From NCBI GenBank assembly GCA_031296105.1, contig JARLGJ010000012.1, positions 1 to 64,000 on the forward strand: 64,000 nucleotides of DNA, read 5' to 3'. A program made the position numbers and the translations under genes. Of the stretch, positions 7,203-63,947 are shown piece by piece; position 1 is the stretch's first letter, and every line of letters starts with the position of its first letter. This stretch comes from Acidobacteriota bacterium (lineage in GTDB: Bacteria; Acidobacteriota; Terriglobia; Terriglobales; Acidobacteriaceae). The notes beneath the pieces are model-generated. The model searched no databases. It was not told the DNA's origin and saw only the letters and a program-made list of their open reading frames with translations.

Positions 7203-7253
7203 AGGGGTGTAAACCTTTCAGTACATCCGTTCGCCATCCGGCGATCGTGTGCG

Positions 7254-7283
7254 GAAAAAGGCCGGGCCTATCGTAGCCCGGCC
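7254..7283 (-). terminator. Terminator after scpB
   Basis: On the minus strand, GGCCGGGC (7283-7276) pairs with GCCCGGCC (7267-7260) and runs into CTTTTT (7260-7255). It lies 17 bases past the scpB stop and may reduce rluB expression from the upstream promoter. Confidence 0.75.
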
Positions 7284-7299
7284 GGAGAAAGAAGGGAAG

Positions 7300-8556: not shown

Positions 8557-8600
8557 CTTGACTCGCTTAGGCCTTCCGCAGTCGGTGCCTTGTTTCCCAT

Positions 8601-8640
8601 CCCACCCTACCGCTCCATAAAGCGGATCGGTAAGGGTGGG
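8601..8640. repeat. Imperfect inverted repeat between scpA and scpB
   Basis: CCCACCCTACCG (from 8601) and CGGTAAGGGTGGG (to 8640) form a 12-bp stem with one bulged base and a 15-base loop. There is no T-run. It resembles the REP-like stems elsewhere in this window. Confidence 0.55.
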
Positions 8641-8659
8641 GCAACCCCTTTAGTGGTTA

Positions 8660-8774
8660 GAACGTCCCTTGAAACCTTGCAACTCTGAAACCTAAAGCCT
8701 ATGGGTTTCGAAACCTCCGAAACGTCCGGAACCTTCAGGCCTCAATCGTTCAACCTGCGCAACCTGTGCAACCT
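8660..8774 (-). repeat. Degenerate 9-bp tandem repeat after scpA stop
   Basis: Read on the minus strand, four bases after the scpA TAA come AGGTTGCAC, AGGTTGCGC, AGGTTGAAC, a 13-base interruption, then AGGTTCCGG, ACGTTTCGG, AGGTTTCGA and further decayed units containing AGGTTTCAG and AGGTTTCAA. The first ten bases after the stop (GACAGGTTGC) equal those after the map stop apart from one extra A there. Confidence 0.8.
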
Positions 8775-8777
8775 GTC

Positions 8778-9731: not shown

Positions 9732-9733
9732 CT

Positions 9734-10840: not shown

Positions 10841-11012
10841 CTGTCTCGCTTTCGGGAAAATCCTTCGCAGGAAAGTGGGCCGGCACACGCCGGGCCTGGG
10901 GCAAGCTCCGGCAAAGGGCCGGAGGCGCACAGCATTCTGCCCCGAAACTTCGATACTAACACGTTAGGGTGAGGAAAGGGCGGGGGAGTGCAAACCCCTG
11001 CGCTGGATTCAC

Positions 11013-11612
11013 TTACCGCTGCACAATCGTTACCCGCTCGTTGCCCGGCAGGGCCGAGACGATGCGGTTCTTCATGGGGAAGGTCGAATCCACGCCGATG
11101 CGGCTGCCGAACTTCGGACGCAGAAAGCGCGCCGCAAAGTACTCCAGGGCGATCTTCGGGATCTGTATGCCGTCGAAGGTCACCGACTCAATCTGCACGT
11201 GAGCCATGCCATGGTCGGCCGAGGCCACGGCCATGCCCACCACATGATGCTGTCCGGTGAAGAACTGCAAAAAAGGATTGCCGCGGGTCCGTCCGTTGGT
11301 GAGTTGGTCAAAGTCCACGTCGGCCTCGCCGCGCACCTCGCCCGGACGCGAGCTGAAGTGCAGGTGAGAAATGCCCGAGGGGAGCCGTCTGCCGTCGTTG
11401 AGATAGGCATTGCATTCCGCGGCTGTCAGCACGGTAGGCGTGGTCGAGGGATGCTCGCTGGCACCGTTCTCGCGCAGGTAGGCGATCGTGCGCGTGGCGT
11501 TTTCCAGTTCGGGAGAGCGGCTGGTGTCCTGTCCGGGCGCAGACGGCAGCAACGCCGCCAGCAGGAGAAGCAGGCTGAGGCTGCGGCGGTGCGTGTACGG
11601 CAAACGATTCAT
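11013..11612 (-). CDS. Small exported protein downstream of AsmA-like gene, function unknown
   Basis: The product has 199 residues with a clear Sec signal peptide (basic MNRLPYTHRR, then SLSLLLLLAALLPSAPGQ). The mature part has no motif I recognise; conserved-looking features are LTAAECNAYLN and alternating beta-type stretches (VRGEADVDFDQL, VVGMAVASADHGMAHVQIESVTFDG). The ATG at 11612 overlaps the TGA of the AsmA-like gene (ATGA), so translation is coupled, which also decides the start over the longer frame reaching 11801. The beta-rich pattern and the pairing suggest a periplasmic lipid- or envelope-related partner of the AsmA-like protein; this is inference. Confidence 0.7.
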   Translation of the reverse strand: MNRLPYTHRRSLSLLLLLAALLPSAPGQDTSRSPELENATRTIAYLRENGASEHPSTTPTVLTAAECNAYLNDGRRLPSGISHLHFSSRPGEVRGEADVDFDQLTNGRTRGNPFLQFFTGQHHVVGMAVASADHGMAHVQIESVTFDGIQIPKIALEYFAARFLRPKFGSRIGVDSTFPMKNRIVSALPGNERVTIVQR

Positions 11613-14122
11613 CGGACGCGGCGGGTGGGAGCGGCCGTCTCCGGAGCCGTCAGCACGGGTTTCTGCAAGGTTCCGCCGATCTTCCACGCCGCACCTCCCG
11701 CTTCGGTAAATACCAGCGCCAGCGCCGAGTCGCGCGAGATGGTGCCGGAAAACTTCAGCTCGCCGCCGGTGGTTTTCCAGGTGGTATCCGTAAAGCTCCA
11801 TCCGTCGCCCGACAGCTTCACCTGTCCCTCGCCGCTGGCCACGCGCATGGGCGCCTTGCCGTCCGGCGCAACCTTCAGCGTGCCGCCGTTCCAGTGGAAC
11901 GACGCCTCGCCTTCGGCCGAGTGCAGCAGTGTGGCGGCGTCGGCGCCGCTCATTGCCAGCTTGTACTTCATGTCCACCGTGCCGCTGCCCAGCGCGCCCT
12001 TCAACAGCGTGGAGAGCTTGTCGGTCTGCACTCGCGTAGCCGTGCCCTCGCCGCTCAGCTTCGGCGCGGCGCCGGAGAAGTCCAGCGTCCAGTCGCCGTC
12101 CACCGTGCCGCCAAAGACCTCCGTTTTGCTGCCGGTCAGGCGCAGCACGCCGTCGGCGACGGCGAAGTTCGTTTCAAAGCCCGCGCCGGTCGAGCCGTCC
12201 AGCACCACGCGGCGCGCGGTGAAGTGCCCCTTGGCGTGCAGGTTGTCCATCACGTTGTTCACCGCGCCGGCCCGCGAGAGCAGTCCCAGCCAGGCTCTCT
12301 TCTTCTGCCCAGGACTCAGCAGGTCATTCCAGCGCTCGGGATTGAATTCGTCGGTGGCCAGGTCGAAGGTCGATTCACAGCCGCCATCAACCACGCAGTG
12401 CCGCGGAAAGTTGGCGCCGCCGGTCAGCGACAGCTTGCCCACCGTGGCCGCGGCGTTGTGCACCGTCATGCGGAAGCCGTCGAACTCGACGTGCGCGGCG
12501 GCAATCTCCACCGGCGCCGCCAATCCGGGAACCTCGACGCGCGCGCCCTTCAGAAATGCCGCGCCAGTCACCGATGGATTGTCAAAGTCCTTCCAGTTGG
12601 CGGATATATGCAGGTCCAGCGCCGCCGGACCGCTCAGCGCCAGCCGTGGCGCGGCAATGCCGGCCGCCTGCGCGAACTGCTGCAAGCGCTCCAGGTGCGC
12701 ATCGCCCTTCAGGTGGAAGTCAAAGCGTTCGTCGTCCAGCAAACCTTCCATCTGCGCCGGAGAAGCTGCTCCCAGAGGCAGGTCGAAGGCCCGCACCAGC
12801 AGTGCGCGCGGCGCGTTGACCGGCATCTGGTTGTGTCCGCGATGGTGCGCCGTGGTGGTTGCCGCAACCGTGCCGGCCGTGGCCGTAATGTGCGGCAGAG
12901 ACAGATCCTTGCCCAGCACGCCGGAGTGCAGCACAAAGTCGCTCACCGACAGTTCGCCGATCCATGACGACGGCGCTTCGCTCGTCTTCTGCCCGTGGAA
13001 GGTTGCCGCAATCGTTCCCTGCGCCGTCAGGTCAGGCGGCAGGGCCTGCTTGGCGTGGCGCACAATGTTCAGCACGGCGTTGGCCGGCAGGCTCTCGGCG
13101 GAGAGGGTCAGGTCGTAGCGCGGACGGCGCACGCCGCGCACCGCGCCGCGCACGGTCAGTACGCCGGCGTCCAGCGGCAGGCGGCATTCCGCGCCGTGGA
13201 TATCCTTGGCGCTGGCGTCGATTTCGCCGGTGCAGGTGGCGTTCAGGTTGGCCGTGTTGCCGGCCTGTATGTCGTAGCGGCGGAAGTCGCGCAGGCGCGA
13301 GGCGGTGGCGATCTTCAAAGCACCGGGTGTTCCGGTCAGTTGCGCGCTGGTATCCAGTTCGCCGCGCCAGCCGCGATCCTCGCCGTAAATCAGGCGCGTC
13401 AGGTTGCCCAGTTGCAGACGCTCCCAGGTGAAGTTGGCCTTCACCGGAGCGTCGCGCAAGGTGGCTGCCCGCTGAATGTTGACCTCGCCCTTCAAGGTGC
13501 CGGTGTCGGTCACGGGCATGTCGGTGCGCACCGGATGAGCCTCAATCCTCATGCGCCACTGGTTTTCCGCGGGACTGAACAGCGAGAAGTCGGCGTCGGT
13601 CAGGCTGAAGACGCTCTTTTCCAATCCGTACTTGAAGTTGATGCGCCCGTTGGTGGCGGCAATGTAAGGAAAGCGCAGCGCTCTTGAAGTGACGGGCGCC
13701 GTCGTGGGCGCGGCCGTCGTCTGCGTGGCGCGCCACAACAGAGACTCCAGGTTCCAGCTCTCGTCGTCGCGCTCCACCAGGTTCAGGCTGGGATAGTTCA
13801 GGTCCAGGCGCGCAATCTCCAGACGCCCGCGCCACAGCGAACTCAGCCGCAGGTAGGCCGTCACTTCGTCGGCGTGCAGAATAGGCTCGGCGCTGTACCT
13901 GGGATCGTCGCCAATGGAGACGTTTTCCATGTAGAAGCCGGGCTGCGGGAGCAAGCGCAGTTCCACCGAATCCACCGTCACCGGGCGGCCCACTGCCTGG
14001 CCAATCGAGGCCGCGATGCGTCCTTTATAGCGGCCGATATTGATGAATGGAGGCAGTACGGCGGCCGCCACGGCCGCCGCCACAATTCCCAGTGCCCACA
14101 GGCGCATTTGTTTGGCTTGCAT
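11609..14122 (-). CDS. AsmA family envelope protein
   Basis: The 837-residue protein starts with one membrane anchor (RLWALGIVAAAVAAAVLPPF) followed by the AsmA signature region: INIGRYKGRIAASIGQAVGR, then VELRLLPQPGFYMENVSIGDDP and the LxxLxxGRLEIARLDL stretch. The rest is a long periplasmic beta-rich region, as in AsmA/TamB-like proteins. Family members are bridge-like proteins linked to lipid movement and outer-membrane assembly. It overlaps lepB by one base (TAATG) and the next gene by four (ATGA), so this is an operon with the signal peptidases. Confidence 0.8.
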   Translation of the reverse strand: MQAKQMRLWALGIVAAAVAAAVLPPFINIGRYKGRIAASIGQAVGRPVTVDSVELRLLPQPGFYMENVSIGDDPRYSAEPILHADEVTAYLRLSSLWRGRLEIARLDLNYPSLNLVERDDESWNLESLLWRATQTTAAPTTAPVTSRALRFPYIAATNGRINFKYGLEKSVFSLTDADFSLFSPAENQWRMRIEAHPVRTDMPVTDTGTLKGEVNIQRAATLRDAPVKANFTWERLQLGNLTRLIYGEDRGWRGELDTSAQLTGTPGALKIATASRLRDFRRYDIQAGNTANLNATCTGEIDASAKDIHGAECRLPLDAGVLTVRGAVRGVRRPRYDLTLSAESLPANAVLNIVRHAKQALPPDLTAQGTIAATFHGQKTSEAPSSWIGELSVSDFVLHSGVLGKDLSLPHITATAGTVAATTTAHHRGHNQMPVNAPRALLVRAFDLPLGAASPAQMEGLLDDERFDFHLKGDAHLERLQQFAQAAGIAAPRLALSGPAALDLHISANWKDFDNPSVTGAAFLKGARVEVPGLAAPVEIAAAHVEFDGFRMTVHNAAATVGKLSLTGGANFPRHCVVDGGCESTFDLATDEFNPERWNDLLSPGQKKRAWLGLLSRAGAVNNVMDNLHAKGHFTARRVVLDGSTGAGFETNFAVADGVLRLTGSKTEVFGGTVDGDWTLDFSGAAPKLSGEGTATRVQTDKLSTLLKGALGSGTVDMKYKLAMSGADAATLLHSAEGEASFHWNGGTLKVAPDGKAPMRVASGEGQVKLSGDGWSFTDTTWKTTGGELKFSGTISRDSALALVFTEAGGAAWKIGGTLQKPVLTAPETAAPTRRVR

Positions 14123-50804: not shown

Positions 50805-51875
50805 TTAGTTGCCTTGCGGGCGTCGTGCGCGCACCGGGGTGCGCTTGCGCAGCGCCGCGGTGGACTTGCGGATTACAAGCTGCGGCGTAAACACGATTTG
50901 CTGCGTCTTGGGGCCGTTGGTAATGGCCGCAACAATTTCTTCCGCCGCCGTCTCGCCCATCTGCCGCAGCGGCTGCTGCACCGTGGTCAGCGGCGGAAAG
51001 ATCATGCTCGCCTCGGCCACGTCGTCAAAGCCAATCACCGAGATGTCGCCCGGCACGTTTTTGTCCGCCTCGCGGAAGCAGTTGATGGCGCCGATGGCCG
51101 AGATGTCGTTGAAGGCCATCAGCGCGGTAAAATCTCCGCCCTGCGCCAACAGCCGTTGCGCGCAGCGCGCGCCTTCTTCCAGGTGGCCCATCGGCCGCAG
51201 TCCAAGCTGCTCCAGTTGCACCACCCGCGTTGGCTCAATCACCACGGAGAGTTCCTGCGCCGCCGTCACCATGGCCTTCCAGCGGTCTTCGGTGTCGGCG
51301 CTGCCCTCGTGCCCCTTGATGAACGCGATCTTGCGGTGTCCCAGGGACACCAGGTACTCCAGCGCCTGATGAATCCCCGCGTGGTTATCCAGGATCAGCG
51401 ATGTTCCCTTGCGCGCTCCGGCCGAGCGCCCAATGCGCACCAGCGGCAGGTTGATCTCGGGGAAGAAGTCGCTGTTCACCACGATCACGCCTTCGGCGCC
51501 GCGCTCCTGGAAGAGTTGCGCCGTGCGCTTGATGCGCTCCTCCGACCACTGGTGGCTGGCCACGAAAAAGTGATATTCGCTGCCCACCAGGAACTCCTCG
51601 ATCCCGGCCAGCAGCGTGGCATCGTAGCCTTCAGCCAGGTCCGGTGAAAGCACCCCGATCAGGTAGCTTCGCCCCTGGTTCAAATAGCGCGCAAAAAAGT
51701 TCGGCTTGTAGTTGAACTCCTTGGCGGCCTGAAAGATACGCTCCCGGGTGTGGGGCGCAATGGTGCTGGCAATGGGGGAGTTGTTGAGCACCACGGAAAT
51801 CGTCGTGCGCGACAGGCCCAAATGCTCGGAGAGGAACTTCAGCGTGACTTTCTTAGCACCGAAGTTGGGGGCCAT
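50805..51875 (-). CDS. LacI-family transcriptional regulator of the beta-glucan locus
   Basis: The protein of 356 residues has an N-terminal LacI helix-turn-helix (VTLKFLSEHLGLSRTTISVV) and a hinge helix, followed by a periplasmic-binding-protein-like effector domain (YLIGVLSPDLAEGYD, EGVIVVNSDFFPEINLPLVRIG, FTALMAFNDISAIGAI, ISVIGFDDVAEASMIFPPLTTV). It probably senses a glucan oligosaccharide. The start at ATG 51875 places the HTH at the usual distance; a longer frame reaches 51965 across the control region. Predicted operators and two facing promoters lie just upstream. Confidence 0.88.
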   Translation of the reverse strand: MAPNFGAKKVTLKFLSEHLGLSRTTISVVLNNSPIASTIAPHTRERIFQAAKEFNYKPNFFARYLNQGRSYLIGVLSPDLAEGYDATLLAGIEEFLVGSEYHFFVASHQWSEERIKRTAQLFQERGAEGVIVVNSDFFPEINLPLVRIGRSAGARKGTSLILDNHAGIHQALEYLVSLGHRKIAFIKGHEGSADTEDRWKAMVTAAQELSVVIEPTRVVQLEQLGLRPMGHLEEGARCAQRLLAQGGDFTALMAFNDISAIGAINCFREADKNVPGDISVIGFDDVAEASMIFPPLTTVQQPLRQMGETAAEEIVAAITNGPKTQQIVFTPQLVIRKSTAALRKRTPVRARRPQGN

Positions 51876-51896
51876 GTGTCCAAGCCTAGCACAGAA

Positions 51897-51916
51897 TTTC
51901 TGAACCGATTCAGAAA
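51897..51916. promoter_or_regulatory. LacI-type operator 1
   Basis: A perfect inverted repeat, TTTCTGAA-CCGA-TTCAGAAA, whose core CTGAACCGATTCAG (51900-51913) differs from operator 3 at two positions. It covers the predicted transcription start region of the regulator gene and ends 22 bases before its ATG, which fits autoregulation. Confidence 0.65.
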
Positions 51917-51921
51917 AGATG

Positions 51922-51951
51922 TTGACAAGAATAATGTACCTAGGGTTAAAT
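51922..51951 (+). promoter_or_regulatory. Predicted promoter of the TonB receptor gene
   Basis: TTGACA (51922-51927) is a perfect -35 box; TTAAAT (51946-51951) is 18 bp downstream. The expected start (near 51957) falls inside operator 2. Confidence 0.65.
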
Positions 51952-51956
51952 CTCAA
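51928..51956 (-). promoter_or_regulatory. Predicted promoter of the regulator gene, facing the receptor promoter
   Basis: On the minus strand TTGAGA (51956-51951) and TATTCT (51933-51928) are separated by 17 bp. The box pair interleaves with the plus-strand promoter, so only one polymerase can sit here at a time. Confidence 0.5.
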
Positions 51957-51978
51957 CCGTTTCACTAAACCGTTTCAG
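51952..51978. promoter_or_regulatory. LacI-type operators 2 and 3 (tandem)
   Basis: CTCAACCGTTTCAC (51952-51965) and CTAAACCGTTTCAG (51965-51978) are two copies of the 14-bp element, spaced 13 bp start to start. They cover the receptor start site and the -35 box of the regulator promoter. Confidence 0.65.
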
Positions 51979-52123
51979 TTTTTCGATTCACAAATGCGTA
52001 TTCCCCCCCCGCCAGACCGGGGTGACGCCAAAAGGCACAACGATGCTGGCGCGGAACAGAGCAGTTTGGAACGGCTGAAACTGTATGACTGATTGGTTCT
52101 CGCTTCGAGGACAGGAGGAAAAC

Positions 52124-55100
52124 ATGAAGCAACGAGTCCAAGCGCTTGCTTGCTTGCTGGTGCTGCTGCTGTGTTGCGGAACATTGCTGGCACAGTCGGA
52201 CCGCGCTACCATCACGGGCACGGTTAAGGACGCCACTTCCGCGGTGCTGCCTGGCGTTCAGGTCCGGATCACAAACACGGGCACCAATGACACCCAAATC
52301 ACCACCACAGACAGTCTAGGTAACTATCGCGCCGGCAACCTGCCGATCGGCGATTACATGGTCACCTTCAGCCGCGACGGCTTCAAGAGCTTCGAGCGCA
52401 AGGGCCTCAGGCTGTTGACCAGTCAGGTTGCGGAAATCGATGCCACCCTGCAGGTCGGCTCCGCCGCCCAGGTCGTGGAAGTCACCGCCGCCACTCCGGT
52501 GCTGCAAACCGAAGATGCCGTGGTCTCCACCAACCTTACCAACGAAGCCGTGGCCGAGCTGCCGATGAACGTGCAGGGCAGCCGTAACCTGTCGAACTTC
52601 ATGTTCAACTACGTCCCCGGCGTCGAAGGCAGTGACTACAGTTCCCACATTAACGGCTCCATGGCCATGACCAAGGAAGTCATGATCGACGGCGTCTCCG
52701 CCGTCTCCCAGTTGGGCGGCTATATCAGCGAGTCGCAGCCGCCGATGGAAGCCATTCAGGAATTCGAAGTCGATACGGCGGGCATCAGCGCCGATGCTGG
52801 CCACAGCGGCGGCGGCGTCTTCCGTTATGAAATGAAGTCCGGCACCAACAAATATCACGGTTCGCTCTTCGGCTTCCTGCACTCCACCGCACTGGATGCC
52901 CTCAGCGCGGAGAGCCGTCTGCTCGCCTCTACCACCGCGTATCCGGATTACCGTGCGGCGTATCTCAAGAAGAGCGATTCCATGTCCGATTGGGGCGGCA
53001 GCTTCGGCGGCGCGCTCATCAAGGACAAGTTGTTCTACTACGTCTCCTTCGAGCGCTACATGCAGTCCATGTGGAGCACCGGCGCGCCTTCGCGCACCGT
53101 CCCCACCGACGCCATGCTCGGCCTCGATGCCAGCGGCAACACTGTCGCCTACGCCGACCTCAGCGCCCTGCTGACCACCAGCGCCGTGCTCGGCACCGAT
53201 AGCTGCTCCAACACCGTCTACCAGGGATCGGTCTTCAATCCCTCGACCGGTTGCGTGTACGTCAACAACCAGATCCCGACCACCAGCATGAGCTCGGTGT
53301 CGCAGAAGATCGCGCAGCTCTATCACAAGTACTACACGCCGCAGAACAATCTGCCTACCAACGATCCGGGTCCGGCCAACCAGCCTGATCCCTGGTTCCA
53401 CAACACGCAGACTGCTTTCAAGATCGACTACAACATCAACAGCCGCCACCGTCTGTACGGTTCCTTCTACTACGACAACTATCCGCGCGTGAATGCCGAC
53501 CAGGGCGGCGTGTGGAGCGTGACCGCTGCTTACGGCGGCCCCATGGCCAACTCTTACTGGCACAACACCACCGCGCCCTCCCTGCGTATTGGTGAAACCT
53601 GGACCATCAACAGCCACATGCTCAACGTTGTGCATGCCGCCTTCAACCGCTTCCGCAATCCCAGCATCGCGGTTTCGCAAAAGGACAAGTGGGACAGCGA
53701 ACTGGGCCTCTTCAACGGCGCCGGCAACTTCCCGCTCATCACCTTCAGCACCGGCTGGTACACCAACGGTGGCAGCTATCAGCGCGGCTGGAGCTTCTCC
53801 AATCTCGGCAGCCAGTTCAACGACTTCTATGCCGGCAATACCTTCATCTACAACGACGAACTCGATTACACGCACGGACGCCACAGTTGGAAGTTCGGCG
53901 CCGAGTTCCGCGCCCAGCAGATGAACGAGCATCCTGACAACCAGACCTTCAACAACATCACCTTCGACCCCACCAGCACCTCGGGCTACTACTCTTACAA
54001 CAACACCGGCAGCGCCTTCGCTTCCTTCCTGCTGGGCGATGTGTACCTGGCCACCAAGACCGCCGTCGATCCCGAATACGGCCGCCGCAAGACGTTCAGC
54101 GCCTTCGCCACCGACGACATCAAGGTCAGCCAGCGCCTCACCGTGGACGTCAGCCTGCGTTGGGACGTCAACGGCGCCTTCCATGAGAAGTACGGTCACT
54201 GGTCCAGCTTCGTACTGGAAGACACCAACACCCTCACTGGCCAGCCTGGCCAGTACGAGTACCTCAGCAAGGGCAGCCAGACGTTTGAAAAGAAGCAGTA
54301 CTGGGGCAATGTCTCACCGCACATCGGCGCCGCCTACAAGATCAACGACAAGACGGTGGCGCGCGGCAACTATGGCGTCTTCTTCGTGCCGCTGAACATG
54401 AACCAGTGGGGCGGCGTGCCCTACCAGCAGACCGGCAACCCCGGCTATTACGATGCCAGCACCGAGTCCGGTTTTAACTGGGACAAAGGTTACAACGGCG
54501 TCATCTCGCACTCGCAGTCGCCCAGCTACACCCAGTGGGGCGTCGTCAGCGTCGATCCGCACTCCCGCATGCTGGGTAACACGCAGCAGTGGAATATTGG
54601 CGTGCAGCGCGAGCTGGCCAAAAACACCAAGGTGGACGTGAGCTGGATTCAGAGCAACAGCTACCACCTGCACACCGGTGCCCTGCGCACCAACCAGCCC
54701 ACGGTGGCCAACATGCAGTCCTACTTCGCCAGCGGTTGCAGCGCGGCAGAGGCTGCCCGTCCGTTCGCTCTTAGTGGCAGCGGTTGGGGTGGCAACTGCA
54801 TGACGCCTTATCCGCAGGCTGGCGCTGGCTGGGGCAACATCTTCTCCGTCAACTCTCCGCTTGGCAACTCGGACTACAAGAGCTTCCAGGTCAGCTTTAC
54901 CCGCCGCACCAGCAATGGATTGAACTTCCAGGGCAGCTATAACTGGTCGCGCACCCACGGTGACGTCGATCAGGACTTTGGCGAGCCCTGGGGCGTGGGC
55001 AGCATCCAGAACATTTACGACAAGGCCGCGGAGCGCAAGGGCATCAGCGACTTCGACGTGACCCACATCGTAAAGGGTTATGTGATGTACGATCTGCCCT

Positions 55101-55630
55101 TCGGTCACGGCAAGCGCTTTGGTTCCGGCACCGGTCCGGTCACCAACGCGGTCATCAGTGGCTGGAGCCTCAACGGCAACTTCCACTACAGCACGGGCAG
55201 CCCGCTGCAGGTTCACTCCACCAACAGCTATCCGGGCTTCGCCTCGGTGTACGTCAACCTGGCCAAGAACTGTAGTCTGCATCGCGGCAGCTATAAGCTC
55301 AACGGCTACTACCTGAACAGCGCTTGCTTTGAGAATCCCACCACCGGTCAGCTCGGCACCGCGGGCAACTATCTTTCTGGTGCTCGCAACCCGGGTTTGG
55401 CCACGGAAGATGTCGGCGTGCACAAGGCCTTCAGCTTCGGTCCCGAAGCGCAATACAGGCTGGCCCTGCGCATGGAGTTCTTCAACGTCTTCAACCGTCA
55501 TCAGATGGGGTCGCCCGATACGGGGCTCTCCGACTATGACTCCAACGGTAACCCGCTGTTTGGCAAAGTCACTGCTTACGGTAGCCAGGGTGGCCGCATC
55601 GGCCAGTTTGGTGCTCGCTTTACCTTCTAA
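52124..55630 (+). CDS. TonB-dependent outer-membrane receptor, acidobacterial carboxypeptidase-regulatory-like type
   Basis: The 1,168-residue protein has a signal peptide (ALACLLVLLLCCGTLLAQ), a CarboxypepD_reg-like domain (residues ~25-105: ATITGTVKDATSAVLPGVQV, DSLGNYRAGNLPIGDYMV), a plug (VVEVTAATPVLQTEDAVVST; GGYISESQPPMEAIQEFEVD) and a long barrel of Tyr/Asn/Phe-rich strands ending in GGRIGQFGARFTF, with the terminal Phe needed for Bam-dependent insertion. This type is multiplied in Acidobacteriota for uptake of oligosaccharides. Its substrate is predicted to be beta-glucan from its neighbours. ATG 52124 lies 5 bases after AGGAGG. A strong terminator at 55648 follows, so receptor mRNA may exceed that of the downstream enzymes. 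Confidence 0.9.
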   Translation: MKQRVQALACLLVLLLCCGTLLAQSDRATITGTVKDATSAVLPGVQVRITNTGTNDTQITTTDSLGNYRAGNLPIGDYMVTFSRDGFKSFERKGLRLLTSQVAEIDATLQVGSAAQVVEVTAATPVLQTEDAVVSTNLTNEAVAELPMNVQGSRNLSNFMFNYVPGVEGSDYSSHINGSMAMTKEVMIDGVSAVSQLGGYISESQPPMEAIQEFEVDTAGISADAGHSGGGVFRYEMKSGTNKYHGSLFGFLHSTALDALSAESRLLASTTAYPDYRAAYLKKSDSMSDWGGSFGGALIKDKLFYYVSFERYMQSMWSTGAPSRTVPTDAMLGLDASGNTVAYADLSALLTTSAVLGTDSCSNTVYQGSVFNPSTGCVYVNNQIPTTSMSSVSQKIAQLYHKYYTPQNNLPTNDPGPANQPDPWFHNTQTAFKIDYNINSRHRLYGSFYYDNYPRVNADQGGVWSVTAAYGGPMANSYWHNTTAPSLRIGETWTINSHMLNVVHAAFNRFRNPSIAVSQKDKWDSELGLFNGAGNFPLITFSTGWYTNGGSYQRGWSFSNLGSQFNDFYAGNTFIYNDELDYTHGRHSWKFGAEFRAQQMNEHPDNQTFNNITFDPTSTSGYYSYNNTGSAFASFLLGDVYLATKTAVDPEYGRRKTFSAFATDDIKVSQRLTVDVSLRWDVNGAFHEKYGHWSSFVLEDTNTLTGQPGQYEYLSKGSQTFEKKQYWGNVSPHIGAAYKINDKTVARGNYGVFFVPLNMNQWGGVPYQQTGNPGYYDASTESGFNWDKGYNGVISHSQSPSYTQWGVVSVDPHSRMLGNTQQWNIGVQRELAKNTKVDVSWIQSNSYHLHTGALRTNQPTVANMQSYFASGCSAAEAARPFALSGSGWGGNCMTPYPQAGAGWGNIFSVNSPLGNSDYKSFQVSFTRRTSNGLNFQGSYNWSRTHGDVDQDFGEPWGVGSIQNIYDKAAERKGISDFDVTHIVKGYVMYDLPFGHGKRFGSGTGPVTNAVISGWSLNGNFHYSTGSPLQVHSTNSYPGFASVYVNLAKNCSLHRGSYKLNGYYLNSACFENPTTGQLGTAGNYLSGARNPGLATEDVGVHKAFSFGPEAQYRLALRMEFFNVFNRHQMGSPDTGLSDYDSNGNPLFGKVTAYGSQGGRIGQFGARFTF

Positions 55631-55647
55631 CTCGTTCCTCCCTGAGT

Positions 55648-55684
55648 CTCTGGGCAGTCTTGCCGGGCTGCCCAGAGTTTTTTC
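55648..55684 (+). terminator. Terminator between receptor and symporter genes
   Basis: CTCTGGGCAG (55648-55657) pairs perfectly with CTGCCCAGAG (55668-55677) and runs into seven Ts. It lies within the presumed operon, so it may act as an attenuator that sets the receptor-to-enzyme ratio. Confidence 0.85.
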
Positions 55685-55782
55685 CCTTGGCCGGCCGCGG
55701 GAGCACGGGCCAGGTCCCCGGATGTTATCGTGTGCTCTGGCTCCGCAAGGCGCTTACGCGGACGGGTAGAGAGGATGCAACA

Positions 55783-57225
55783 ATGACGACGGCGAGCGGG
55801 CGTCTTTCCTTTTTCGAAAAAGTCGGTTACGGCCTCGGCGACACTGCCTCCAACTTTTACTGGCAGATGTTCCTCAACTTTCTGGCATTCTTTTACACGG
55901 ATATCTTCGGTCTCTCCGCCGCCGCCGCGGCCACCATGTTCCTCGTGGTCCGCATCCCGGATACACTTATCGACCCCGTCATGGGCGTCATCGCCGACCG
56001 CACCCAGACGCGCTGGGGACACTACCGTCCGTATCTTCTCTGGGGATGCCTGCCCATGGCCGTCATCGGCGTCCTCACCTTCACCACCCCCGGTTTTAGT
56101 CCGCATGGCAAGCTCCTCTACGCCTACGTTACTTACAGCCTCATCATGCTTTGCTACACGTTCATTAACATTCCCTACGGAGCGTTGATGGGTGTTATCT
56201 CGCCCAACTCCCTGGAGCGCACTTCGGTTTCCAGCTATCGCTTTGTGCTGGCTTACATCGGACTATTCATGGTTCAGGGCCTCACCATTCCCATGGTCAA
56301 GCACTTCGGACATGGCAACGATCAGGTGGGTTTCCAGTGGGCCATGGCGGTCTTCGGCGTGCTGGCCGTCGCGCTCTTCCTGGTCACCTTCGCCACCACG
56401 CGCGAGCGGGTGCAGCCCGCGCGCAACGCCTCCAGCAGCCTCGCCAAGGACCTCTGCGACCTCTCGCATAACATGCCATGGGTCATGGTCTGCTTCATCG
56501 GTGTCTTTGCTGTCTTCTACATTTCGCTCCGCATGGGAGCCATCCTGTATTACTTCAAGTACTGCGTGGTAAGGCCAGGCGAGCTGATGCACATCAATCT
56601 CACTCTGCTGGGTTACCCGCTGCGCGCCAATCTCTCCGGAGAAGCTCTGGCCTCTTGGTTCATGGCCACGGGCACCGCCGGAGTTATTCTTGGCGCCTCG
56701 CTGGCCAAGCCGCTCTGCCTGCTCTTCGGCGGCAAGCGCCGCGCCTACATCATCCTCATGTCGGCCGCCAGCGTGCTCACTGCGGCTTTTTACTTTGTGC
56801 CGCTCAGCAACATTCCTCTTATCTTCGCCACCCACATCGCCATCTCGACGCTCTTTGCGCCGACCTCGCCGCTGCTGTGGGCCTTCTACGCCGATACCGC
56901 CGATTACTCCGAGTGGACCAACGGCCGCCGCGCCACGGGACTTGTCTTCAGCGCCGCCTCCTTCTCGCAGAAAATCGGATGGGCCATCGGCAGTTCACTC
57001 TTCCTCTGGCTCATCGGCGCCGTCGGCTTCCACGCCAACGTGGCACAGTCCGCCGCGGTGCAGCAAGGCATTCGTTCCATGATGAGCTTTTTCCCTGCGG
57101 TACTCGGCTTCCTGTCCGCCGGTTCGGTGCTCCTCTACAAGCTGGACGACAAGCTCATGGAGCAGATCGAACGCGACTTGAAACAGCGCAAGGAGCAGCC
57201 GGAAGCGCTGCCCGCTCAGGCTTGA
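55783..57225 (+). CDS. GPH-family sugar:cation symporter
   Basis: The 480-residue inner-membrane protein has 12 membrane segments and the glycoside-pentoside-hexuronide family signature: KVGYGLGDTASNFYWQMF, RIPDTLIDPVMGVIADRT-x-TRWGHYRPY (DPxxGxxxDRTxxRWGxxRP), NIPYGALMGVIS and YADTADYSEWTNGRRATGLV. It would bring di- or oligosaccharides into the cytoplasm. ATG 55783 follows AGAGAGG. Its stop overlaps a possible GH17 start (TGATG). Confidence 0.92.
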   Translation: MTTASGRLSFFEKVGYGLGDTASNFYWQMFLNFLAFFYTDIFGLSAAAAATMFLVVRIPDTLIDPVMGVIADRTQTRWGHYRPYLLWGCLPMAVIGVLTFTTPGFSPHGKLLYAYVTYSLIMLCYTFINIPYGALMGVISPNSLERTSVSSYRFVLAYIGLFMVQGLTIPMVKHFGHGNDQVGFQWAMAVFGVLAVALFLVTFATTRERVQPARNASSSLAKDLCDLSHNMPWVMVCFIGVFAVFYISLRMGAILYYFKYCVVRPGELMHINLTLLGYPLRANLSGEALASWFMATGTAGVILGASLAKPLCLLFGGKRRAYIILMSAASVLTAAFYFVPLSNIPLIFATHIAISTLFAPTSPLLWAFYADTADYSEWTNGRRATGLVFSAASFSQKIGWAIGSSLFLWLIGAVGFHANVAQSAAVQQGIRSMMSFFPAVLGFLSAGSVLLYKLDDKLMEQIERDLKQRKEQPEALPAQA

Positions 57226-57239
57226 TGGAGATTGTACTT

Positions 57240-58253
57240 ATGCGCAAATTTGCCGTGTTTGCAGTTTTGTTTATCCTGATCGCAGCCGCTCAGAGCTTTG
57301 CCGAAGGCCCTTCCATCGCGCCCAAGGTCATCGACCTCGCGCGCCAGCAGTGGAATGGCGACGCCGTTTGTTACTCCGGCTTCCGCGCCGGACAGAATCC
57401 CGACCTGCAACAGTATCCCAGTGAGCGCGATGTGCTGGAGGATTTGCAAATCCTCTCGCGTCACTGGCGCGTCATCCGCATGTATGGCGCGGACCCGCAC
57501 ACGGCCACCGCCCTGCGCGTCATCCAACGGCATCACCTGCCGCTCAAGGTGCAGCTCGGCATCTGGCTCACTGGCAAAAAGGGAAGTGAAGCCGCCAACC
57601 AGCAACAACTCGACGATGGCATCGCTCTCGCCAAAAAGTATCGCCGAGAAGTTGCCGCCGTCAGCGTTGGCAATGAGGCGCTCGTCTCCTGGAGCGATCA
57701 CGCCATGACCGAGGACGCCATGATCGAGGCCGTCGAGCGTGTCCGCCGCGCCGTCCATCTTCCCATCACTGTCGATGACGACTTTCTCTATTGGATGAAG
57801 CCGGACGCCAAGCTCGTCGCCCACGTGGACTACATCGCCCTGCACATCTATCCCGTCTGGGGCAATGAAGACATCGACACCGCCATGGCCACTACCGATA
57901 AGCTCTACCGCCAGGTGCATGCGGCGCATCCGGAAAAGACCATCGTCATCGGTGAAGCCGGCTGGCCTACTTATACCATCGGCGAAAAGCACGCACCGCG
58001 CGCCGGCAGCGAGGCCAAGCAAAAACGTTACTTTCAGGAGATCAGTCAGTGGGCGCGCGACCAACACGTCACCGTCATGGTCTTCGAGGCCTTTGACGAG
58101 CCCTGGAAGGGAACGGGCACCGAAGGCCACTGGGGCTTGTTCTCCGCGGATCGCAAGGCCAAGCCCTCTGTGCTCGACTGGTATCCCGAGTTGAAGCCCG
58201 ATCATCCTACCTCGCCTTCCTACGACGTGGCGCCCGCGCCGGTGACGAAATGA
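57240..58253 (+). CDS. Glycoside hydrolase family 17, probable beta-1,3-glucan-active enzyme
   Basis: The 337-residue exported protein has a signal peptide (MRKFAVFAVLFILIAAAQSF, then AEG) and a TIM-barrel typical of GH17. The acid/base Glu146 is in AAVSVGNEALVSW and the nucleophile Glu239 in IVIGEAGWPTY. GH17 enzymes cut or transfer beta-1,3-glucan chains with retention. The start at ATG 57240 has GGAG 9 bases before it and begins the signal peptide; an ATG at 57225 would couple more tightly to the symporter stop. It overlaps the next gene by four bases. Confidence 0.88.
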   Translation: MRKFAVFAVLFILIAAAQSFAEGPSIAPKVIDLARQQWNGDAVCYSGFRAGQNPDLQQYPSERDVLEDLQILSRHWRVIRMYGADPHTATALRVIQRHHLPLKVQLGIWLTGKKGSEAANQQQLDDGIALAKKYRREVAAVSVGNEALVSWSDHAMTEDAMIEAVERVRRAVHLPITVDDDFLYWMKPDAKLVAHVDYIALHIYPVWGNEDIDTAMATTDKLYRQVHAAHPEKTIVIGEAGWPTYTIGEKHAPRAGSEAKQKRYFQEISQWARDQHVTVMVFEAFDEPWKGTGTEGHWGLFSADRKAKPSVLDWYPELKPDHPTSPSYDVAPAPVTK

Positions 58254-61200
58254 CCGCCGCGCCGGTGTTCACTCCCCACGCGCGCCAGGACGCACAAGGC
58301 GGCTTCGTCGAGCTCGATGGCCAGCTCTTTTATCGCATCGCGCATTACGACCGCATGGATGCCTTCTTTATGAGCATCGTCAGCGCGTCCGATCATTACC
58401 TGTTTATTTCCAGCACCGGCGGCCTCACCGCCGGCCGCCGCGGTCCCGACAACGCTCTCTTTCCGTACTACACCGACGACCGCATTCACGAGAGCTACGA
58501 ACACACTGGCAGCAAAACGCTGCTGCGCGTCGGCCGCGGCCCGGAGAGCATCACCTGGGAGCCGTTCAGCATTCGCGGCGCCGCCGAACTCGCCTCTGGC
58601 GTGTGCTCGCGCACCCTGTATAAGAGCACCTGCGGCAATCGCGTCGTCTTTGAAGAAGTGCACCACGGCCTGGAACTCTCGTTCCGTTACGAGTGGGCCA
58701 CCAGTCAGCGCTTCGGCTTTGTCCGCACCGCGCGCCTCGAAAACCTCGGCCCGTCTCCCCGCGCCATCGAAGTGCTCGACGGCCTGCAGAACCTGCTTCC
58801 CGCCGGCATCTCGCGCCGCTTCCAGTTGGAATACAGCACGCTCGTCGATGGCTACAAGCGCACCGAACTCGACCTGGCCAGCGGCGTCGCCATGTTGCAA
58901 CTCACATGTGTGCCCATCGACCGCGCCGAACCCAGCGAGTCTCTGCGCGCCAACGTCGCCTGGTCGGCGGGCATTCAGCCCGCCGCGCGCCTCATCAGCA
59001 GCACGCAGCTCGATGCCTTCCGCGCCGGCGAAGAACTCGTCACCGAGCCCGAGATGCACGGCCGCCGGGGCGCTTACTTCATCAACGCGGCCTTCGCGCT
59101 GGGCTCGCGCGAGTCGCGCAGTTGGAAGCTTGTCGCCGACGTCCATCTCGATACCGCTGCCGTCCGCGATCTCATTCACACCGTCCGCACCACCGCGGAC
59201 ATCGTTTCCGCCATCGACGCCGACGTGGCGCAGGGCACGGAAAATCTGCGCGCCATTGTTGCCGCCGCCGACGGCTTGCAGCAGACCGGCGATGCCGCCA
59301 ACGTCTGGCATCACTTCGCCAGCACCATGTTCAACGTCATGCGCGGCGGCCTGCCCGCCGAGGGTTACAACGTCGAGCGCGAGGACTTCTCCCGCTTCGT
59401 CGCCGAAATGAATCGCGACGTCGCCCGGCGGCAAAAGAGTTTTCTCGCCATTCTGCCGCAGCAACTCACGCATCAGGAGTTGCTGCGCCGCGCCAGCCTC
59501 AGCGGCGACGCCGATCTTGAGCGCATCGCGCACGAGTACCTTCCGCTCACCTTCAGCCGCCGCCACGGCGACCCCAGCCGTCCCTGGAACATCTTCGACA
59601 TTCACCTGCGCGACGAGCGCCGCCGCCGCATCCTGAACTATCAGGGCAACTGGCGCGACATCTTTCAAAACTGGGAGGCGCTCAGCGTCTCGTATCCCGC
59701 CCTTGCGCCCAGCATGATCTTCAAGTTTCTCGACTGCTCCACCGCCGATGGCTACAACCCCTATCGCGTTACTCGCGATGGCTGCGACTGGGAGGTGCTG
59801 GAGCCGCACGACTCCTGGTCTTTCATCGGCTACTGGGGAGATCATCAAGTCATCTACCTGTTGCGTCTGTTGGAGCAGGCCGAGCGCTGCGACCCGCAAT
59901 CTCTCGAGCGCCTGCTCGACCACCCTTGCTTCAGCTACGTCAACGTCCCGTATCGCATCAAGCCCTACGCGGAGATTCTGCGCGACCCGCAGAGCACCAT
60001 CGTCTTCGATCGTCCGCTGCACAATAAGCTGCTCGCGCGCGCCGCGCGCCTCGGTGCCGATGGCAAGCTGCTCTGCGCCGCCAGCGGCGAACCGGTTCGC
60101 GCCACGCTGGCGGAAAAGCTCCTGCTCGTGCTGCTCACCAAGCTCTCCAACTTTGTGCCCGGCGCCGGCATCTGGCTCAACACGCAGCGCCCGGAGTGGA
60201 ACGACGCCAACAACGCGCTGGTCGGCCACGGTGCCTCCATGGTCACCGTGTACTACCTGCATCGTTATCTGCGCTTTGTGCGCGCGCTTTTCGCCCGCAG
60301 CCCGCAAAAATCTTTCTCGCTTCCGCTGGAGATTGCCACGTGGCTCGACAGCACCTCCGCGGCTCTGTCGGCCAATCGTCCGGCGGCCGATGTTCCCGTT
60401 ACCGATGCCGCGCGCAAGCACCTGCTCGATCTCCTCGGCCTCGTCGGCAGCGACTATCGCGAGCAGCTCTATGCCAGCGGCTTCCAAGGGCAGCGCCGCG
60501 CGGTGGAGAAGGCCGCGCTGCTGCAACTTTTAGACGAGGCACTCGGCCATGTCGTCCACACCATCCGCGCCAGCCGCCGCGCCGACGGTCTCTACGATTC
60601 CTATAACCGCATCGAACTGCACGGCGGCGAAGTCCGCGTGCATGGCCTGGCCGCCATGTTGGAAGGCCAGGTCGCCGCGCTCAGTGCCGGTGTCTTGCCC
60701 GCGTCCGAGGCCTTGCAACTTCTCGATGCCTTGCGCCGCAGTCCGCTCTATCGCGCCGATCAGAATAGTTACATCCTTTATCCCGCCAAGCCCGTGCGTT
60801 CGTTCCTCGCCAAGAACAACCTGCCGATGGAAAAGGTGCAGCAGTCGAAGCTGCTCGTGAAAATGCTGGCCGCGGGAGACACGCGCATCGTCGGCCACGA
60901 CTTCGAGGGCGGCATTCACTTCCACGGTTCGTTCCAGAACGCCAGTTATCTGCGCGCCACGCTTAACGGCATCCGCGAGCGCGGCCTACGCAAGCTCGCC
61001 GTGGAAGAGCGCGAACTCATCTGTGCCATTTACGAGGATTGCTTTGTGCATCGCGCCTTCTCCGGCCGCTCCGAGGCCATGTACAAATACGAAGGCATCG
61101 GCTGCATCTACTGGCACATGGTCAGCAAGCTGCTCGTCGCCGCACAGGAGGTTCTCGCCCAGGCCATTGCCGCCGGAGATGCGCCCGCCACCATCGCCGC

Positions 61201-61729
61201 GTTGCAGGCGCATTATCGTGACATCCGCTCCGGCCTCGGCACGCACAAGCCGCCGCGCCAATACGGCGCCGTGCCCATCGATCCCTATTCGCACACGCCC
61301 GACTTCACCGGCGCACAGCAACCCGGCATGACCGGCCAGGCCAAGGAGGATTTTCTCGCCCGCATCGGCGAGATGGGCGTCATCGTCAGCGAGGGCCGCC
61401 TGCGCTTTGTGCCGCAGCTCATCACCGGCAACGAATTCCTCGCCGCGCCTACTGCATTTCATTTCCTCGACGTCGCGGGCCGCCCGCGCACTCTGCAACT
61501 TGAGCCGGGCAGCATGGCCTTTACCTACTGCCAGCTCCCCATCGTGCTGCACCAAGGCGGTCCGGCGCGGATTCGCGTTACTCAGGATGGTGCGGAGAAA
61601 AGTTTCGACGGTCTGGTTCTCGATGAAGAATGCACGCGCGGCATTCATGCGCGTGAAGGAAGAATTTCGCAACTCGACGTGTTCCTCGCTCTCGACGGAG
61701 ACTCCGTGAGCGAGCCGCCGGTTGCTTAG
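58250..61729 (+). CDS. Large clan GH-Q glycoside phosphorylase, probable beta-1,3-glucan phosphorylase
   Basis: The 1,159-residue cytosolic protein (no signal peptide) has the cellobiose-phosphorylase layout: N-terminal beta-sandwich (residues ~20-290), a helical linker, an alpha/alpha-barrel containing GDPSRPWNIFDIHLRDE, YQGNWRDIFQNWEALSVS and the catalytic-type motif RPEWNDANNALVG (Asp652), then a C-terminal jelly roll. GH94 enzymes are ~800 residues; the extra length and the setting with GH17 and GH16 point to the beta-1,3-glucan phosphorylase families GH149 or GH161. It would release alpha-glucose-1-phosphate from glucan oligosaccharides. Family assignment needs a search. Its ATG overlaps the GH17 stop. 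Confidence 0.85.
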   Translation: MTAAPVFTPHARQDAQGGFVELDGQLFYRIAHYDRMDAFFMSIVSASDHYLFISSTGGLTAGRRGPDNALFPYYTDDRIHESYEHTGSKTLLRVGRGPESITWEPFSIRGAAELASGVCSRTLYKSTCGNRVVFEEVHHGLELSFRYEWATSQRFGFVRTARLENLGPSPRAIEVLDGLQNLLPAGISRRFQLEYSTLVDGYKRTELDLASGVAMLQLTCVPIDRAEPSESLRANVAWSAGIQPAARLISSTQLDAFRAGEELVTEPEMHGRRGAYFINAAFALGSRESRSWKLVADVHLDTAAVRDLIHTVRTTADIVSAIDADVAQGTENLRAIVAAADGLQQTGDAANVWHHFASTMFNVMRGGLPAEGYNVEREDFSRFVAEMNRDVARRQKSFLAILPQQLTHQELLRRASLSGDADLERIAHEYLPLTFSRRHGDPSRPWNIFDIHLRDERRRRILNYQGNWRDIFQNWEALSVSYPALAPSMIFKFLDCSTADGYNPYRVTRDGCDWEVLEPHDSWSFIGYWGDHQVIYLLRLLEQAERCDPQSLERLLDHPCFSYVNVPYRIKPYAEILRDPQSTIVFDRPLHNKLLARAARLGADGKLLCAASGEPVRATLAEKLLLVLLTKLSNFVPGAGIWLNTQRPEWNDANNALVGHGASMVTVYYLHRYLRFVRALFARSPQKSFSLPLEIATWLDSTSAALSANRPAADVPVTDAARKHLLDLLGLVGSDYREQLYASGFQGQRRAVEKAALLQLLDEALGHVVHTIRASRRADGLYDSYNRIELHGGEVRVHGLAAMLEGQVAALSAGVLPASEALQLLDALRRSPLYRADQNSYILYPAKPVRSFLAKNNLPMEKVQQSKLLVKMLAAGDTRIVGHDFEGGIHFHGSFQNASYLRATLNGIRERGLRKLAVEERELICAIYEDCFVHRAFSGRSEAMYKYEGIGCIYWHMVSKLLVAAQEVLAQAIAAGDAPATIAALQAHYRDIRSGLGTHKPPRQYGAVPIDPYSHTPDFTGAQQPGMTGQAKEDFLARIGEMGVIVSEGRLRFVPQLITGNEFLAAPTAFHFLDVAGRPRTLQLEPGSMAFTYCQLPIVLHQGGPARIRVTQDGAEKSFDGLVLDEECTRGIHAREGRISQLDVFLALDGDSVSEPPVA

Positions 61730-61754
61730 CCATAACTCTTATTGGGGGAATGCC

Positions 61755-62918
61755 ATGCGCGAACTATCCATCAACGTCAATTTCCGGCGGAGCCTCGTGC
61801 GCCGCGTTGTCTCGTCATGCGCCCTCGCGGTGCTCTTCTGCTCCGTGCCCGTCATGAGTTCCTGCGGCGGAGGCGGTTCGTCGTCCACCTCCGGCGGCGG
61901 TGGCACCACCTCGCAAGCCGCCACGCCCGTCATTGCCACCGCGGCCGCGCTCAACGGAGCCGTGATCGTCACGCTCTCCGACTCCACATCCGGCGCCGCT
62001 ATCTACTACACCGTGGATGGCGCCACGCCCACCACCAGTTCGCCGCGCTACATCGCACCCTTCCTGCTCTCGTCTGACGCCACCGTCAAGGCGCTGGCCG
62101 TTGCCTCCGGTGACACCAACAGCTCCGTCGCCTCGCAGGCCTTCACGCTCGGCATCGCCTCCGGCACGCTCGTCTGGTCCGATGAGTTCGCCAACTCCAC
62201 CACCGCCAACGCCGCGCCCAGCACCACCACCTGGACCTACGACACCGGCGCCGGCGGCTGGGGCAACAGCGAGCTTGAAACCTACTGCGCCTACGGCTCC
62301 ACTACTTCGCCCTGCGATGCCAGCAATCCCAACGTCTATGTCGGCACCGACGGTTATCTGCACATCCTCGCGCGCAATCCGTCCTCCAGCGTGTACACCT
62401 CTGCGCGCATGAAGACCCAGGGCCTTTTCAGCACCAGCTACGGACGCATCGAGGCGCGCATCAAAATGCCCGAAGGCCAGGGCCTCTGGCCTGCCTTCTG
62501 GACGCTCGGCAACAGCGAATCCACCGTCGGCTGGCCCGCCTGCGGCGAGCAGGACATCATGGAGCACATCAACGCTCCCTCGCCCGATTGGATCGCCGGA
62601 TCCCTGCACGGCACCAACATGGATCTCTCTACTCAGTACTCGCCCAGCAGTTTTTCCGCCGCCGACTGGCACACCTACGGCATCCTCTGGACCACGCAGT
62701 CCATCAAGTTTTACGTGGATGACCCGGCAAACATTTACGCCACTTACACGCCCAGCAGCATGACGGAGTCCGGCGCCGTCTGGCCCTTCGACACCAAGGG
62801 CGGAGCGTTCATTATCCTCAACATGGCGGTCGGAGGCTCCTGGCCCGGCTCGCCCAATACGTCCACTACGTTCCCCTCGGAGATGCTCGTCGATTACGTC
62901 CGCGTGTATAGCAACTAA
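61755..62918 (+). CDS. Glycoside hydrolase family 16 lipoprotein (laminarinase-like)
   Basis: The 387-residue protein has a signal peptide with a lipobox-like VMSSC (Cys37) and a Gly/Ser linker, then a chitobiase-C-like beta-sandwich (residues ~57-130, IYYTVDGATPTTSSPRY) and a GH16 jelly-roll with the catalytic GEQDIMEH (Glu265, Glu270, E-x-D-x2-E). Other GH16 marks are GYLHILARN, GRIEARIKMPEGQGLWPAFW and DYVRVYSN. It is predicted to be a cell-surface endo-beta-1,3(4)-glucanase. ATG 61755 is preceded by GGGGGAA. It ends the glucan gene set. Confidence 0.9.
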   Translation: MRELSINVNFRRSLVRRVVSSCALAVLFCSVPVMSSCGGGGSSSTSGGGGTTSQAATPVIATAAALNGAVIVTLSDSTSGAAIYYTVDGATPTTSSPRYIAPFLLSSDATVKALAVASGDTNSSVASQAFTLGIASGTLVWSDEFANSTTANAAPSTTTWTYDTGAGGWGNSELETYCAYGSTTSPCDASNPNVYVGTDGYLHILARNPSSSVYTSARMKTQGLFSTSYGRIEARIKMPEGQGLWPAFWTLGNSESTVGWPACGEQDIMEHINAPSPDWIAGSLHGTNMDLSTQYSPSSFSAADWHTYGILWTTQSIKFYVDDPANIYATYTPSSMTESGAVWPFDTKGGAFIILNMAVGGSWPGSPNTSTTFPSEMLVDYVRVYSN

Positions 62919-62928
62919 TTAGAATCAG

Positions 62929-62968
62929 GCGGGAGCGGGATGCCGTCTTCAACGGCGTCCGCTCCCGC
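62929..62968. other. Long hairpin after the GH16 gene
   Basis: GCGGGAGCGG (62929-62938) pairs with CCGCTCCCGC (62959-62968); an inner CCGT/ACGG pair closes the loop. There is no clear T-run, so it may be a processing-type 3' end of the glucan operon. Confidence 0.5.
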
Positions 62969-63152
62969 AGCAATTCAATAACTGACGAAGCCTCCTCAAT
63001 CCCTTCTAACTTCGCGTTGCCCGCTCTGCGGAACGTGTTACTGTGAAGTCGTGCGTGGCGAGTGCATTGCCGTCGCGCGGATTGCTTCCGCTGGGTCAGG
63101 CGCGGGTGGAAGCCTTGACTTGGCCAGGGATTTGCATAGGGAAGAGTAACGT

Positions 63153-63947
63153 ATGGCTGGCGAACGTTATTTTCAGTTGATGGGTACTGCCGCTGGACCC
63201 GGGGTTCCGGCTTTCTTTTGCGAGTGCGCGGGCTGCGCCGAGGCCCGGCGTGACCCGCAACTCAGCCGGGCGCGTTGCAGCGCGCGCGTGCACCTCGACG
63301 GCGCCAACCTCCTGATCGATCCAGGCCCCGATCTGCGGCAGCAACTTGTGCGCTTCGAGGTCGGTGAAATCCAGGAGGTCTTCCTCACCCACTGGCATCA
63401 CGACCATTGCGGCGGCCTCGGGGAACTCGAATATTACATTCAGTTGCATCGCCGCGCGCCGCTGCGGCTGCATCTTCCCTCCGGCGCCATGCAGCCGTTC
63501 CTCAACGCCTACCCGCACCTCGGCGAAATCTTTGAGCTGGTGCCATGGGCCTGGGGAGAGCCCATGGCTTGCGGCAATGTCACCATCACCGGCCTCGAGG
63601 CCAACCATGGCATTGAGACCGCGGGAGTTCTGGTGCGCGGCGACGGCGTTTCCATCGCTTATTTTCCTGACACCGCGGGCCTTCCCGAAGCGACGCTCCG
63701 CCGGGTCGAAGGCGTGGACTGGCTGATCTGCGATGCCACCTTTACCGGCGAAAACTGGTTCCCCGCCAGTCATATGACGCTCAGCGAAACAATCGCCCTG
63801 GGCAAGGCCGTGCACGCGCGGCACACCGTGCCGACGCACTTCGCGGTTCACTTCTCCGATCCAGTGACCCATGCGGAGCTTGCCGCTCTTGTCGTGGATG
63901 AGCCGGATGTACGTCTGGCTCACGATGGAATGAAGATCGCTCTTTAA
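63153..63947 (+). CDS. PhnP-like metallo-beta-lactamase-fold hydrolase
   Basis: The 264-residue protein has the metal-binding H-x-H-x-D-H motif in LTHWHHDHCGG (His80, His82, Asp84, His85) and an N-terminal cysteine cluster CECAGC (Cys23, Cys25, Cys28) of the kind that holds a structural zinc in PhnP. Downstream metal ligands are in LEANHGIE, YFPDTAG and VPTHFAVHF. PhnP hydrolyses cyclic phosphodiesters such as 5-phosphoribosyl-1,2-cyclic phosphate; no other phn gene is present, so the substrate here is open. ATG 63153 is preceded by a GGGAAGAG site. Confidence 0.82.
   Translation: MAGERYFQLMGTAAGPGVPAFFCECAGCAEARRDPQLSRARCSARVHLDGANLLIDPGPDLRQQLVRFEVGEIQEVFLTHWHHDHCGGLGELEYYIQLHRRAPLRLHLPSGAMQPFLNAYPHLGEIFELVPWAWGEPMACGNVTITGLEANHGIETAGVLVRGDGVSIAYFPDTAGLPEATLRRVEGVDWLICDATFTGENWFPASHMTLSETIALGKAVHARHTVPTHFAVHFSDPVTHAELAALVVDEPDVRLAHDGMKIAL

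Follow-up and report, generated by a model that had tools for sequence, protein, structure and literature searches.

The window, the whole stretch of 64,000 nucleotides analysed here, very probably carries a LacI-controlled, SusCD-less β-1,3-glucan utilisation locus of the Type II GH149 kind, a reading that covers the enzymes, the receptor and their regulation together. Six genes in 50805-62918 make up the locus: a LacI gene at 50805-51875 and, divergent from it on the plus strand at 52124-62918, genes for a receptor, a GPH symporter, GH17, GH149 and GH16, all of them intact. The original prediction had read these genes as a system for phosphorolytic use of β-1,3-glucan without SusCD, and this is still the best reading, since the GH149, the laminarinase-type GH16, the GH17, the GPH symporter and the co-conserved receptor agree on it. 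The features are as follows.

50805-51875, minus strand: LacI-family regulator, 356 aa; Pfam LacI and Peripla_BP_3; 51% ortholog, also divergent, in genome G719
51897-51916, no strand: operator-like palindrome TTTCTGAACCGATTCAGAAA with 8-bp perfect arms
51952-51978, no strand: two tandem operator-like sites, CTCAACCGTTTCA and CTAAACCGTTTCAG, with AAnCGnTT cores
52124-55630, plus strand: predicted SusD-less outer-membrane receptor of TonB type, 1168 aa; has a signal peptide, CarboxypepD_reg and an OMP_b-brl_4 barrel, with a weak Plug match
55648-55683, plus strand: terminator- or attenuator-like hairpin between receptor and symporter, 13 pairs (55648-55677) then TTTTTT
55783-57225, plus strand: GPH-family (MFS_2) inner-membrane symporter, 480 aa; TIGR00792, PF13347
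57225-58253, plus strand: GH17 β-1,3-glucanase, predicted, with Sec-type signal peptide; PF00332
58250-61729, plus strand: GH149 β-1,3-oligoglucan phosphorylase, predicted, 1159 aa, without signal peptide; NF058639, 6hq6
61755-62918, plus strand: GH16 laminarinase-type lipoprotein, 387 aa; CHB_HEX_C_1/Fn3_assoc domain; ExDxxE site at 265-270
62929-62969, plus strand: strong hairpin 3' of GH16 (z -6.67), likely the end of the transcription unit

Gene layout and the enzymes of the locus

Gene starts were re-set from the sequence for LacI (GTG 51965 to ATG 51875), GPH (ATG 55783) and GH16 (ATG 61755); GH17 starts at ATG 57225 or 57240. The genes are consecutive and co-directional as predicted, but the ATGA-type overlaps claimed for them were found at only two of the four junctions. 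GPH and GH17 share one base (TGATG, 57223-57227; with the GH17 start at 57240 they would instead lie 14 nt apart), and GH17 and GH149 share ATGA at 58250-58253, whereas 152 nt (55631-55782) separate the receptor from GPH and 25 nt separate GH149 from the ATG of GH16. The operon is not one tight chain of overlaps, and in this respect it had been over-read. The GC content of the genes, 60-64%, is near that of the window, 64%.

The 1159-residue protein, put forward as a GH-Q phosphorylase, is predicted to be a GH149 β-1,3-oligoglucan phosphorylase. It scored 1505 bits over residues 13-1146 with the GH149 equivalog of NCBIfam, NF058639 (cut-off 1150 bits), a Pfam-A search gave no match to it, and GH161 enzymes match it weakly. 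Its sole full-length solved relative is Pro_7066 (6hq6; 1062 bits), a distant homolog of metagenomic, flavobacterial-like source. The active-site residues named for Pro_7066, i.e., the WND loop, RD, and the donor/phosphate-site Glu and His (PMC6771811), are all kept in the alignment (WND 650-652, RD 469-470, Glu948 and His956). Because characterised GH149 enzymes phosphorolyse β-1,3-oligoglucans of DP 2 or more down to glucose (PMC6484121), a laminaribiase would strictly be unneeded. For the other enzymes the original family calls proved sound. The best matches of GH16 are β-1,3-glucanases, and its lipobox is weak here (MSSC) but canonical (LAGC) in the ortholog of G719, which is 63% identical. 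The GPH symporter scored 386 bits with TIGR00792, above the cut-off, and GH17 retains both catalytic glutamates.

Two other readings of these enzymes were weighed. SOGP-type GH94 enzymes are similar in size to the window phosphorylase, and characterised GH149 and GH161 enzymes tolerate other β-linked acceptors, both of which would favour a GH94-type enzyme of the GH-Q clan that phosphorolyses β-1,2-oligoglucans or cellodextrins. Such an enzyme is extremely unlikely here: the equivalog score is far above its cut-off, the neighbours are β-1,3-glucanases, and GH94 has no match anywhere in the genome, by which a GH94 taken wrongly for GH149 is excluded. A GH94/SOGP identity was rejected on that score and that genomic absence. 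For GH17, the alternative is a β-1,3-glucanosyltransferase that remodels imported glucan for branching or storage, with GH149 working in synthesis. In a comparison of 136 GH17 sequences, i.e., that of the window and those from GH149 loci, the window protein belongs to a set whose β3-α3 segment has 28 residues; endo-laminarinases have about 38-40 there and MlGH17B-type enzymes 25. The long loop of the endo-laminarinases FbGH17A and MlGH17A is not found in it, and the short loop, like that of MlGH17B, FbGH17B and RmBgt17A, speaks for a transferase, as does the long alignment with RmBgt17A (4wtp; 6fcg is another PDB match). However, of the transglycosylation residues Tyr136, Trp191 and Glu192 (MlGH17B numbering; PMC11005184), only the Trp is kept in the window protein, with Val for Tyr136 and Gly for Glu192 in the alignment at GNE-x-x-Y and PYWE, and in RmBgt17A a single Ala change at either the Tyr136 or the Glu192 position abolishes transfer (PMC11005184). 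The window protein also has a signal peptide, unlike the cytoplasmic MlGH17B. With two of the three required residues replaced, we rejected GH17 as a transglycosylase and regard the remodelling reading as very unlikely. The best call for GH17 is a predicted periplasmic hydrolase, because its N-terminus, judged by eye, is signal-peptide-like.

The outer-membrane receptor and the regulatory region

Set against the plug and 22-strand barrel of TonB-dependent receptors, the receptor combines CarboxypepD_reg with an OMP_b-brl_4 barrel (489 bits); its Plug match, 18.3 bits, is below the Pfam cut-off of 23.9, and a PDB sequence search with it gave no match. As had been claimed, no SusD is present: SusD_RagB (PF07980) has no match in the locus or in the whole genome, which is 99% complete, while a Bacteroides control was positive. 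Thus, by the PF07980 search, the locus lacks the SusD-like lipoprotein paired with SusC of a Bacteroidota-type PUL.

Could the receptor be a chance neighbour, a separate unit with another ligand upstream of a β-1,3-glucan operon made up of GPH, GH17, GH149 and GH16? The 152-bp gap before GPH with its terminator-like hairpin would fit this, and so would the abundance of OMP_b-brl_4 (PF25183) barrels, with 20 matched stretches in the genome, and the LacI-GPH-GH149 unit of another genome, G475, which has no such receptor alongside. Against it, the ortholog at the G719 GH149 locus is 59% identical, relative to about 22-32% for own-genome paralogs, and likewise lies between a divergent LacI and the enzyme genes (GH16-GPH-GH17-GH149); in the window the operator-like sites are placed before the receptor. 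A chance neighbour is therefore unlikely, and this co-conservation argues that the receptor serves the β-1,3-glucan system, as originally proposed. A narrower reading, in which the OMP_b-brl_4/CarboxypepD_reg receptor is a dedicated β-1,3-glucan importer, surface GH16 replaces SusD, and the conserved hairpin sets the receptor:enzyme ratio, is tentative, and we put its chances somewhat below even. In the literature searched, no sugar ligand was found assigned to the OMP_b-brl_4 receptor family. The likely substrate assigned here to an acidobacterial member is new, and it gives one protein of a large receptor family a specific, testable ligand.

The LacI regulator named in the original prediction is borne out by its HTH and its periplasmic-binding-like domain, with CpG-centred palindromic operator-like sites nearby. 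The 248-bp divergent region between LacI and the receptor holds three CpG-centred AAnCGnTT cores, a count reached in 0 of 5000 dinucleotide-preserving shuffles; the pattern was derived from the same region that was scored, and therefore the independent support for it is its repetition, the perfect arms of the palindrome and the G719 copies. There, AAACCGGTT copies are found at the same place, two cores and a near-copy, as reached in 37 of 5000 shuffles. A search at the related G475 locus (L002) found no such operators. Across the genome the exact pattern occurs only at this locus, and one-mismatch sites are in no excess over a reversed-pattern control, by which we rejected a wider LacI regulon. 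The restriction of the exact pattern to the locus suggests that LacI is a regulator dedicated to it, with putative operators, and pairing a LacI with a visible operator array makes the regulon simple to test.

The region holds 10 terminator-like sites where 9.0 are expected, so the class as a whole shows no enrichment. Of these ten stems, that of the hairpin between receptor and GPH is the longest; on its own this hairpin scored z -1.76; the hairpin at the matching position in G719 (L123) scored z -4.05 and has no T-run. Because of the z-score of the window hairpin and the lack of a T-run in the G719 copy, we infer rather than assign its role.

A second SusD-less receptor (OMP_b-brl_4, CarboxypepD_reg, Plug) is encoded elsewhere in the same genome (L168, G000:C39:60000-76000; 5362-13115, minus strand), followed by GH30 and a PA14-GH3 β-glucosidase. 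This set is possibly a β-glucan debranching locus, and no AAnCGnTT array was found upstream.

Conservation, distribution and history

G719, from a second genus of the same family, has the same six genes at 44-63% identity, in another order and with LacI divergent. The set thus recurs re-ordered, and among 80 loci of other bacteria the majority have GH149 adjoining GH16, GH17 or both, which is more than chance would give. The locus is rare: GH149 above the cut-off was found in 14 of 396 sampled genomes of the phylum, and in four of 398 genomes of the family. On the G719 contig (C31, L123/L125), GH16 lies directly behind the receptor and GH149 comes from another subclade than that of the window. 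In loci L116, L120 and L121 (family f27), GH149 occurs with GH17 and a more diverged MFS_2-like transporter; in L116 the GH17 has a C-terminal extension and an SSF symporter is also present.

In the GH149 tree, the window protein pairs with that of G674, of the same family, with support 100. Its clade is mainly acidobacterial with one Actinomycetota sequence, and a wider set adds Alphaproteobacteria and an archaeal MAG, while the G719 GH149 groups with Alphaproteobacteria. The window GPH is closest to the GPH of G475 (729 bits, relative to 399 for G719). Because the GH149 subclades differ and GPH is nearest to a third genome, the locus looks like a mosaic with exchange between lineages, not one vertically inherited unit. 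Single outsiders in the tree could reflect MAG binning errors. A GH149 on a contig labelled Candidatus Brockarchaeota (L003, JAFNIX010000008.1) is 52% identical to that of the window and nests by an acidobacterial sequence; either archaea acquired the gene by transfer or the contig was binned wrongly.

An empty-site test in congeners could demonstrate no insertion point, because neither FdhD nor the metallo-β-lactamase on the right flank is syntenic there. The latter, a metallo-β-lactamase-fold protein at 63153-63947, has no close relative in the congeners, where the best reaches about 32%, and the right flank therefore lacks synteny. A plasmid origin was considered and rejected, with no match found.

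Proposed pathway and comparison with published systems

These assignments suggest the following route, in which localisation and the direction of flux are those that the predicted signals and families would imply. Surface lipoprotein GH16 would cut β-1,3-glucan to oligosaccharides, which the TonB-type receptor would bring into the periplasm, where GH17 would trim them to short pieces for uptake into the cytoplasm by the GPH symporter. There GH149 would release glucose-1-phosphate by stepwise phosphorolysis, with a final glucose, and phosphoglucomutase would pass the glucose-1-phosphate to glycolysis, saving one ATP per bond; phosphoglucomutase-type proteins are encoded in the genome. Through the three tandem operators LacI would act as repressor both of its own gene and of the receptor promoter until a substrate-derived sugar releases it, and the hairpin 3' of the receptor gene would probably give an excess of receptor over the downstream enzymes.

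The best-supported substrate is linear β-1,3-glucan or its oligosaccharides. Curdlan, callose, fungal glucan and laminarin cannot be separated by sequence, nor can a soil origin be decided in this way. A GH30 debranching enzyme is absent from the locus, and two GH30 genes lie elsewhere in the genome. Growth on laminarin or its hydrolysis is documented for Terriglobus saanensis (PMC3570800).

Marine Bacteroidota laminarin PULs of Formosa (PMC6246565) and Muricauda (PMC13188888) resemble the locus in having GH16, GH149 and an MFS transporter beside GH17. They differ in carrying GH30 and several GH17 enzymes, whereas the locus has a single GH17 and no GH30, and the Formosa PULs carry SusCD, whereas the locus has no SusD. 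In Formosa one fusion protein joins a short-loop GH17 with an MFS transporter (PMC6246565); here the two are separate adjacent genes with a one-base overlap, an adjacency that by analogy is consistent with trimming being coupled to uptake in the same way.

The original prediction of a SusCD-free PUL analogue holds as to the lack of SusCD. The architecture is not new, since SusCD-less Type II GH149 clusters of Alteromonadales, with TonB receptor, GH16, GH17, MFS_2 and regulators, were published in 2018 (Kuhaudomlarp 2018; PMC5827456), and the pathway itself is known too. The locus has the makeup of such a cluster, with a TonB-type receptor and an extracellular GH16, both predicted, and with GH17, MFS_2 (pfam13347), GH149, a regulator and no SusCD pair. 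The regulator class differs, with LacI in place of a histidine kinase/response regulator; the GH17 of the Alteromonadales clusters is called cytoplasmic, whereas that of the window has a signal peptide; and the receptor differs as well, being an acidobacterial OMP_b-brl_4 protein with CarboxypepD_reg. In the open-access literature searched, the link of Acidobacteriota to GH149 may be undescribed. The locus extends the published Type II GH149 cluster to subdivision-1-type Acidobacteriota, in a LacI variant.
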